Origin: Blastobasis lacticolella
Taxonomy: Eukaryota > Arthropoda > Insecta > Lepidoptera > Blastobasidae
Direction of reading: 5' to 3'
Length of the DNA stretch: 64,000 nt
Assembly (NCBI GenBank): GCA_905147135.1
Contig: LR990049.1
Coordinates: forward strand, 17,439,428 to 17,503,427
The translations under genes were made by a program, and so were the position numbers. Shown piece after piece: positions 12,701 to 15,700 of the stretch. Numbering within the stretch: the first letter of the stretch is position 1; each line of letters begins with the position of its first letter. The notes under the pieces are model-generated. The model saw nothing but the letters and a program-made list of their open reading frames with translations. It did not search any database and was not told where the DNA came from.

Positions 12701-15700
12701 TGCTGTCAAAATAGAGCCGTCTTTGGCTGGAATAGATTCGTCATTTTACAGCAGTTGTTTCTGTCCAATAGGACGACAGTAATTTGACAACAGACCTTAC
12801 GCCTTCATAGCGCCAGCTGAAATCGTGAACACCTTCATTCTGAGCCTTGCAGTAGATGCCTACAGCCTTTGCCTTGCAGCCACTGTCGAACGGTGTCTGT
12901 AACCTAAGGGAAGCTGATGGTGGTGCCTGTAGACATGCATTTAGAAGTATCCCATGTTATAGTGCAAAGGAAAGACCCAAAGCGAATTAGAATACAAAAA
13001 AAATTATCAAGCTCAGAATGGGTTACTCTACATATCTACTGAGATTCAGGTTTTTTTAGCAAGAAACTTGTAAAAAACCTATCAGCTGTCAATCAGATGG
13101 TTGGTGTATGAGATTGGTAAGACTGAGTCCAATATATAGTCCTAAAGTCATGGATTTTGGAACACTTTGAAAACGGAGTGTAGATGTTACGGTTTTTCTA
13201 TTGCCATTTTTTATATTTACCACACGTGTTTCTCTTTTACTCTGTATGTTCAGAACAAGTATGTTTCTAATGTGAACTCATTTTCAGGATTCTGATCGTG
13301 GATTGGGACGTGCATCACGGACAGGCCACGCAGCAGATGTTCTACGACGACCCAAGGTTTGTAAACTATAGATAAAACGAATCTTGGTTTACTTTCGTGT
13401 AACAAATGTTCCCAGTGAATACCATCCCCAAGGGGAGACATATGTGTGTGATGTAACCGATGTACTCATTACGCGAATTGATCACGATTTTCGATAGTTC
13501 TTATACAAAAGAAAGAAAGAATGTAATGATGGAGAAGCTAGATTAAAGATTCAAGTGCCACAGACTATCTCGCATTGATAGCACTACCGTTTGAGTCACA
13601 CTGCTTGCATTTGACATTTATCAAACTCAAGCTACAGATCTGTAAACTTTGTCTCAAACAAATTTTCGATGGATTCAAACAAACCATATGGTTACATTGG
13701 GTTGGTTTGGAGAAAATTTTTCTGTGCTATCAGAAATCTAAAATTCGCACCACGTATAACTTTGGTTCTGTTTTGTAAGCAAATAACAACTTACAGCATT
13801 CTGCATATCACCAACAATTCTTATTCAATGTTTCTGTCTGTCATATCGATGGAAAACATGTCTGAGACAGCCCATAGTAACGAGATCAATCCATCCCTCC
13901 CAGAGTGGTATACTTCTCGATCCACCGCTACGAGCACGGCGCCTTCTGGCCGAACCTCCGCCAGTCCAACTTTAACTACACGGGCTGCGGCCGCGGGAAA
14001 GGGACGACGTTCAACGTGCCACTAAACCAGACAGGGATGCAAGACGCCGACTATATAGCGATCTGGCATCAGCTGCTGTTGCCTATGGCGTTCGAGGTGA
14101 GTTTTCGGGAGTTGGAGTAATGAATATATGAATACTAATTAGTAAGTAAAGTATGTAAGTAAAAATATTGCACACACAAAAGTCAAAATACATAACAGAA
14201 AAAAGAAACAATTAATATGCGCGTAAAGGCGGCCTTATCGCTTCATTTCATCCTTTAACGTTAATGAGGGTTTTCACCATTCCAAAATCCACGAGATGGC
14301 GTTACTGCAACATACGGTTCCTGTCAAAATAAAGCTCTGTCACTGACTGGAATATATTGGTTTAGAGCAGTTGGTTTTGTCCAATAGAACGACAGTATTT
14401 TGACAAGCAGACCTTTCGTCTCACTAGCGCCATCTGCAATCGTGAAAACCCTCATTCAATGAGCGTTATCGCGATATCTAAATCCAACAGATGTCGCTGT
14501 TGAGGTGTACGGGCGTGCTGTCAAAATAAAACCGCATCATTGGCTGAAACGCGTTTGTCATTGTACGGCAGTTGTGTGTCCAATTTCTCGGCAGTAGTTC
14601 CTCAACTGACCTGACGCCGTAGCGCCATCTGATAGATTTTGGAATCACGAAACCCCTCACTGACACCGTGGAACGACGTGACGCGACGTCTTTCTGTGAA
14701 TTTTCAGGGGACCATGTTTGCTACATTGATATTCAATTGAGACTCAACTTGAGACTTCAATTGTCAAAAATTAGGTATTCAGCAAACAAATTTATCGATT
14801 GGGTTGTAATGGAATCGTATTAATGATGTTCATGATTTCAGATGGCGCTAGTGAGCTTTTCTTTAATACAAATTTTATGTATAATTATTTTTGAATTTTT
14901 TCATGTACACGGATAATGTATGTTTGTGCAAATGTCCGTTATCCAAATGAGCGTAAAATGGATCCCTACATGTTAATAATATAAAACAAAGCAAAGAAAA
15001 AGAATAAAGTTACAAAACAACGCCATCTAGCGGTTTTTTTTTACGATTTAACTGCTTTATTTTATATTTTTAAAATATAGAAAGCCATTTGTCACTCAAA
15101 CGAATAAAAGAATGGAAGAAGAAAATTTAGTATGGAAATCAACAAGTAACAAGTTTTCTCATTGTATTCCACAATCTAAACAATATGAATGTCGCCATGG
15201 GTGATTTCACTGATTCCCAAGACACAGGTTATTCCTAGTTTGGAAGCAGGACAACAAAAATTGATATGTTCTAATCACAATTGCCATTTAACACATATCT
15301 TACTGTATTTTGATATTAAATAAATAGTATTTATTAAGCACATCAAATAACTCACCAAACGATGTCCCCAGTACCAACCGGAGCTGATAATTGTGTCGGC
15401 GGGCTACGACGCGGCGGTTGGCTGTCCCGAGGTAAAAGGCATCTCTTTCTAACACACCGCGGTACTATATCTCTGTCTCTTTCAGTTCTCGCCCGAACTG
15501 GTGATCGTGTCGGCCGGTTACGACGCCGCTTTGGGCGACGAAAAGGTTTGCCCGTTTTACCCGGTTGCGGTGGGAGGGGAGGGGGTAATGGTTTTGCTGT
15601 GGTTTGGCGGTGTTGCATGGCACTCTTATGTCTATCAAACCGTAACGCTTTGCCATGCTCACGGTGGAAAAACTCTTCACATAAATTGTCACAGTTATGC

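Follow-up and report, generated by a model that had tools for sequence, protein, structure and literature searches.

Organization of the HDAC6 locus

The window, by which we mean the whole 64-kb stretch of DNA analysed here, carries an HDAC6 gene on its forward strand. Exons of both deacetylase domains (CD1 and CD2) were recognized, and two short homologous exons, named A and B, lie in tandem within CD1 (Table 1). The CD1 product matches the histone deacetylase domain of Pfam (PF00850) with 277 bits when it contains exon A and with 282 bits when it contains exon B. The CD2 exons reach as far as 28547 and match the same domain with 318 bits. For the frame at 29170-29403, zf-UBP (PF02148) scores 49.6 bits; we infer that this UBP zinc finger exon belongs to the HDAC6 transcript together with both deacetylase domains. 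The nearest proteins among the best 120 of 1011 matches are lepidopteran HDAC6, which makes a moth or butterfly the likely source of the gene, and the best solved-structure matches of CD1 in the PDB are HDAC6 chains. The 12 other listed introns measure 547-1541 nt, against the 54 nt that separate A from B. Between 18693 and 23455, an open stretch at 20210-20341 ends in CYIYDEAMLKHKNICEP, which by eye resembles the start of CD2 in the consensus of relatives. This stretch is probably a missing HDAC6 exon, and with a CD2-start-like peptide inside them the 4761 nt ahead of 23455 are unlikely to form a single intron.

Table 1 Features of the HDAC6 gene around the exon pair, in window coordinates.
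Feature	Position	Strand	Content	Basis
HDAC6 CD1 exon	10531..10658	+	counted from an ATG (true start and upstream N-terminal coding unsettled)	splice borders, homologs
HDAC6 CD1 exon	11655..11838	+		splice borders
HDAC6 CD1 exon	12432..12631	+	RPPGHHA, catalytic histidines	splice borders, relatives' alignment
HDAC6 CD1 exon	13288..13356	+	DWDVHHG, zinc ligands	splice borders, relatives' alignment
HDAC6 CD1 exon directly 5' of the pair	13904..14096	+	ends ...LLLPMAFE	
Exon A	15372..15431	+	YQPELIIVSAGYDAAVGCPE; zinc-ligand Asp; Glu at gatekeeper position, HDAC10-like	
Intron between A and B	15432..15485	+	54 nt; sole yUnAy is CTAAC at 15449-15453, A at 15452	
Exon B	15486..15545	+	FSPELVIVSAGYDAALGDEK; zinc-ligand Asp; Lys at gatekeeper position, HDAC6 CD1-like	
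HDAC6 CD1 exon directly 3' of the pair	17087..17280	+	GEMEVTPG...LEGGY	
CD1 end / linker exon	18526..18693	+		
CD2 exon	26952..27081	+	unduplicated homologous strand YDPELVIVSAGFDACVGDPLGG, Leu at gatekeeper position	

Exons A and B are each 60 nt long, open, in phase 0 and bounded by AG and GT. They encode peptides identical at 13 of 20 residues, and of the codons for these shared residues six are the same and seven differ silently; at the level of bases, 38 of 60 positions are identical. For a chance control, all stretches of the AG-60-GT form on both strands of the window were scored against A with BLOSUM62. This control comprises 413 stretches, 164 of them open (A and B counted in), and B scores 69 where the runner-up scores 6, which rules out a chance likeness of the two exons. 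A six-frame scan for 20-mers scoring at least 30 found a single further place, the homologous strand of CD2 at 27018. Since CD2 thus has a strand of its own, with Leu at the gatekeeper, the pair was rejected as a misplaced piece of CD2. The preliminary description of this DNA had reported the two 60-nt phase-0 segments with their AG/GT borders, and its coordinates and peptides match ours exactly; our codon comparison agrees with its count of 13 like residues with seven silent differences, and the CTAAC that it placed about 20 nt from the upstream donor in the 54-nt gap lies at a measured distance of 21 nt. We conclude that A and B form a genuine exon pair of ancient origin that has been conserved.

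Other features of the window

Outside the exon pair, several repeats and frames were observed. A GC-rich unit of 119 bp is repeated 26 times at 52851-55940 with 99% likeness and is either a real array or an assembly artefact; an exon-like piece, LRMQEVQPSATLKYAEPVV, is present in every unit, with GTGGGT after it. The reading frame VTLEIVIAKYWANIGELVVDYTIEFHGLRPD, which adjoins the array, may resemble tripeptidyl peptidase II. The tRNA-B-box-like motif GGTTCGANTCCCGG occurs with at most one mismatch at 2502-2515 (-), 16246-16259 (+) and 27288-27301 (-), with 0.15 occurrences expected, and the latter two matches fall inside the HDAC6 gene. The three matches are perhaps tRNA-derived SINEs; ARAGORN called no tRNA gene in the window. 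At 2799-3623 lies an open frame of 275 aa with a helix-turn-helix of the Tc3-type transposase (PF01498, 49.7 bits).

The gatekeeper position at the exon end

The last residue of either exon stands seven residues past the zinc-ligand Asp (D+7). In gap-free alignments, the Glu of exon A falls on position 274 of the HDAC10 chain 6vnq_A, with the Asp of exon A on position 267, and the Lys of exon B falls on the Lys of human and zebrafish HDAC6 CD1. The available portion of PMC5454378 describes K330 of zebrafish HDAC6 CD1 (K353 in human) and E274 of zebrafish HDAC10 (E272 in human) as corresponding gatekeepers, of which Lys serves anionic C-terminal acetyl-lysine substrates and Glu serves cationic acetylpolyamines. 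According to the same text, the Lys gatekeeper sets the narrow substrate range of vertebrate CD1, and all other human HDACs carry Leu or Met at this position. Furthermore, the E274L substitution cuts the activity of HDAC10 on N8-acetylspermidine 20-fold and raises that on acetyl-lysine about 100-fold, and thereby alone makes a lysine deacetylase of a polyamine deacetylase (PMC5454378).

In the window, a Lys gatekeeper of the HDAC6 CD1 type is found only in exon B and a Glu gatekeeper of the HDAC10 type only in exon A, and CD2 has Leu at the corresponding position. Because the last residue of the exon falls on the published gatekeeper position, the choice of exon reverses the gatekeeper charge. 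The preliminary description had already noted that the two forms differ around the first active site (VGCPE versus LGDEK), which holds; the new point, taken from the alignments, is that the last residue of the exon falls on the published gatekeeper and is Glu in one form and Lys in the other. By analogy with the characterized enzymes, we infer that exon choice would switch the substrates of CD1.

Both exon types across arthropods

To survey relatives, 158 distinct homologous proteins were pooled from three homolog searches, which contributed the best 120 of 1011 matches, 17 matches (5 of them new) and the best 120 of 2002 matches (33 of them new). For each protein, the part of the sequence lying between the two flanking exons (the slot) was extracted and assigned to a class by its last residue. 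A single A-type slot (GCxE) is present in 108/158 of the proteins pooled from these best-match lists and a single B-type slot (GDxK) in 38/158, counts that are not firm since the protein database is clustered at 90% and may hide second isoforms. Seven of the 158 carry A followed by B, exactly 20+20 residues, in models from Cydia, Anticarsia, Phthorimaea, Neodiprion (X2), Ladona, Diaphorina and Anopheles christyi.

Five proteins (P0001, P0119, P0124, P0126 and P0127) fall in neither class. In P0001 the model is mis-joined and the actual slot is of the A type, and P0119 and P0124 were aligned to CD2, the CD1 slot of P0119 reading GCSE. A third kind of gatekeeper residue in the CD1 slot is thus seen in 2/158 proteins: P0126, from Bradysia, has a slot without a charged residue at the gatekeeper, and P0127, from a tapeworm, has Tyr. 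The strand slots of P0126, an HDAC6-like protein of Bradysia odoriphaga, read GCAI and GCAL, and this species possibly represents a lineage in which the switch was lost.

The 38 single B forms come from 10 Lepidoptera, 1 caddisfly, 3 Orthoptera, 14 Hymenoptera, 1 Hemiptera, 8 Diptera and Daphnia magna (1), orders being assigned from species names. Both types are present in Lepidoptera, Hymenoptera, Diptera, Orthoptera, Hemiptera and Odonata, and the two Daphnia species have one form each, D. magna the B form and D. pulex the A form. The preliminary description had proposed a search for the paired exon in other Lepidoptera and insects and had named a missing second exon in related species as a refutation; the occurrence of both types in these six insect orders goes against that refutation and supports its interpretation. 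In the ant Acromyrmex echinatior, the exon pair is annotated as alternative isoforms: X1 (P0079) and X2 (P0132) are 1173 aa each, are each listed with a contig of 326282 bases, and differ at 8 residues, all within 354-372 and inside the slot, which ends in CPE in X1 and in DEK in X2. Among the matches listed, 14 proteins are known from lgn/ena contigs alone, and every one of them has the A/E form. This may mean that B is rare or A dominant; alternatively, the 90% clustering of the database may hide B. No earlier description of the exon pair was found among the papers listed from an open-access library, judged by titles and abstract openings.

The two types differ consistently within the slot. 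The residue at D+5 is Cys in 115/115 E-exons and Asp in 45/45 K-exons; the E and K columns themselves are perfect by construction, as sorting was on the last residue, and the linked D+5 residue is not. D+6 is variable, with P, F, L or A in E-exons and E, D or G in K-exons. Further systematic differences between A and B are found at D+1 (Ala versus mostly Ser) and at D-11 (Gln versus variable).

The divergence of the types was measured on ten A/B pairs, of which nine come from one gene each (the window included) and the Daphnia pair joins two species. Across orders, A-A comparisons share 14-18 of 20 residues, B-B comparisons 12-18 and A-B comparisons 7-15, ranges that overlap at the edge, and A and B of one pair share 10-13. 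In 20/20 cases, the closest exon from another order belongs to the same type, which places the duplication before the insect orders sampled, without later homogenisation. The duplication is probably older than the split between Daphnia and insects. Recent duplication or gene conversion was rejected, as the exons sort by type and not by species in all 20 cases.

Splicing of the exon pair

A and B are adjacent, homologous exons of equal phase that encode the same region of the protein. The adenosine of the CTAAC branch-point candidate lies 21 nt from the exon A donor and 33 nt before exon B. In mammals, distances of less than 50 nt from donor to branch point are treated as steric interference in the parts of PMC5740500 and PMC7969005 that are available, and the branch points of human OGDH 4a/4b lie 25-41 nt from the donor (PMC7969005). 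The pair resembles OGDH 4a/4b and the exons of the human survey in its tandem homologous exons, short intron and branch point near the upstream donor (PMC7969005, PMC5740500). It differs from OGDH 4a/4b in gene and organism and in that the branch point here is predicted only (PMC7969005). It also differs from mutually exclusive exons of the OGDH type in that A and B are both multiples of three, so that double inclusion keeps the frame. Very short introns are spliceable in insects, and the steric argument derived from mammals is therefore not proof.

Since the A donor and the sole consensus branch point are 21 nt apart, one exon per transcript would be expected, and mutual exclusivity of A and B is probable in this species. 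A single exon is carried by 146/158 models and both exons in frame by 7/158; the latter may reflect faulty prediction or represent a genuine third form. On visual inspection, B has the less consensus-like donor (GTTTGC, against GTAAAA for A), and B has a long pyrimidine tract at its acceptor where A has a weak one; given this asymmetry, the outcome could depend on regulators.

Folding of the RNA from A through the gap to B was no better than that of shuffled sequences (z -0.10; 95/200 shuffles at least as good). An AT-rich inverted repeat of 17 nt, 88% complementary, flanks the pair at 15122-15138 and 15742-15758; it could loop out both exons or could be a chance occurrence. The protein P0123, a tandem A+B form, was modelled by AlphaFold2 with a mean pLDDT of 65.7 and a pTM of 0.71 (15 sequences). 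In this model, copy A forms the core strand at 341-347, and the pLDDT falls below 50 for residues 353-377, which span the GCPE end of A and the whole of B, a faint hint that double inclusion would spoil the gatekeeper loop.

Comparison with vertebrate HDAC6 CD1 and HDAC10

CD1 of the window shares its domain, zinc ligands, catalytic His-His and catalytic Tyr with vertebrate HDAC6 CD1, and the Lys of exon B corresponds to K330/K353. The His-His, Asp and His ligands are present in 156/156 aligned proteins, two of the 158 being left out of this and the following indel comparison because too little of their CD1 aligned. The slot Asp and the Tyr of EGGY are invariant in an alignment of 15 proteins, and CD1 looks catalytically intact. 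The insect genes differ in having an alternative Glu exon, of which the available text of PMC5454378 makes no mention for vertebrates.

To HDAC10 the window gene is similar in the Glu gatekeeper, exon A with its downstream residues reading GCPEGEM and zebrafish HDAC10 GDPEGEM. It differs in its HDAC6-like architecture, with a UBP zinc finger besides the two deacetylase domains, and in that HDAC10 is a separate gene in vertebrates whereas here an alternative exon is found. According to PMC5454378, as far as its text is available, the gatekeeper is necessary and not sufficient, since HDAC10 has in addition a two-residue insertion in L1, and human HDAC6 CD1 bears bulky residues opposite the gatekeeper (F105 and Y225). 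The L1 insertion of HDAC10 (the 3-10 helix with the PACE segment) is lacking in CD1 of the window: no gap occurs in the L1 loop between CD1 of the window and zebrafish HDAC6 CD1, and no L1-loop indel relative to the window is present in 156/156 relatives. At the positions of human F105 and Y225 the window has Tyr in both cases; the relatives have Tyr (150) or His (6) at the former and Tyr (154) or Phe (2) at the latter. Collectively, the absence of an L1 indel and the CD1 residues at these two positions identify the scaffold as that of CD1, and the exon-A form was accordingly rejected as an HDAC10.

As regards a separate HDAC10, the lists in the available part of PMC7288346 give five HDACs for Drosophila, including one of class IIb, and five with a similar phylogeny for Anopheles; on these lists, both seem to lack a separate HDAC10. 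N8-acetylspermidine was undetectable in the flies studied in PMC9310527, whose available text we rely on here. This counts against a polyamine role, and it fits either absence of the substrate or its efficient removal. The portions available of two further sources report HDAC6 as upregulated (PMC4617343) and list HDAC classes only (PMC9740019).

Proposed role of the exon pair and alternative explanations

The reading that we prefer, and hold to be rather likely, is that A and B are alternative zinc-ligand strands of CD1, probably spliced singly, which set the charge at the active-site mouth. The branch point near the A donor would keep A from being easily joined to B, and each transcript would take exon A or exon B. 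The Lys form (B) would then retain the known selectivity of CD1 for substrates that carry a negatively charged C-terminal carboxylate, and the Glu form (A) would repel such substrates and favour positively charged ones, as Glu does in HDAC10; CD2 would be unaffected by the choice. The analogy also suggests that in insects and Daphnia HDAC6 with exon A deacetylates acetylpolyamines or cationic substrates and HDAC6 with exon B deacetylates C-terminal acetyl-lysine, an assignment that we regard as doubtful.

The pair might instead be mutually exclusive with a difference that serves folding, stability or partner binding and not substrate charge. The systematic differences at D+1 and D-11 are in keeping with this, as is the activity of vertebrate CD1, which is narrow and debated. 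The two types nevertheless split without exception at D+5 and D+7 while D+6 varies, and D+7 is the specificity hot spot described in the available literature, so that we consider this explanation unlikely. Joint inclusion of A and B, giving a duplicated strand of 20 residues and a CD1 that is likely inactive, would amount to on/off control beside or instead of a specificity switch. The frame is kept on double inclusion, the seven tandem models have exactly 40 residues in the slot, the cluster of Neodiprion pinetum X2 has 22 members, and the predicted model of P0123 is compatible with a spoiled gatekeeper loop. Going by their names and contigs, however, these seven models look genome-derived rather than transcripts, and the many single-exon models, the 54-nt gap and its predicted branch point all speak against joint inclusion; the fold of P0123 is of low confidence and silent on use. 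We judge joint inclusion to be quite unlikely.

It is also conceivable that A alone is used in practice and that B is a rarely spliced relic added by gene predictors. Such a reading would agree with the A/E form of all 14 listed proteins from lgn/ena contigs and with the poorer donor of B. Against it, the frame of B is open and its splice borders are kept in the window, the zinc-ligand Asp and the Asp at D+5 are retained in 45/45 B exons from Daphnia to moths, and the B exons of different orders share more residues than would be expected of a relic. A pseudo-exon is unlikely for the further reason that these 45 exons of relatives keep GDxK or ADEK with the zinc-ligand Asp, and we consider the relic explanation very unlikely.

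Implications for HDAC6 in arthropods

The role of HDAC6 CD1 is an open question, and the exon pair offers a natural two-state experiment on this domain. The persistence of a pair with opposite gatekeeper charges from Daphnia to moths implies an advantage in retaining both activities. If the proposed switch is true, one gene would toggle between two enzyme identities by means of a single gatekeeper residue, a case in which splicing would change what substrates an enzyme accepts and not whether it is switched on or off. The exon-A form is a candidate polyamine deacetylase where HDAC10 seems absent, and exon-A HDAC6 would, if this is true, replace the separate HDAC10 that is apparently missing in the arthropods covered by the available part of PMC7288346.
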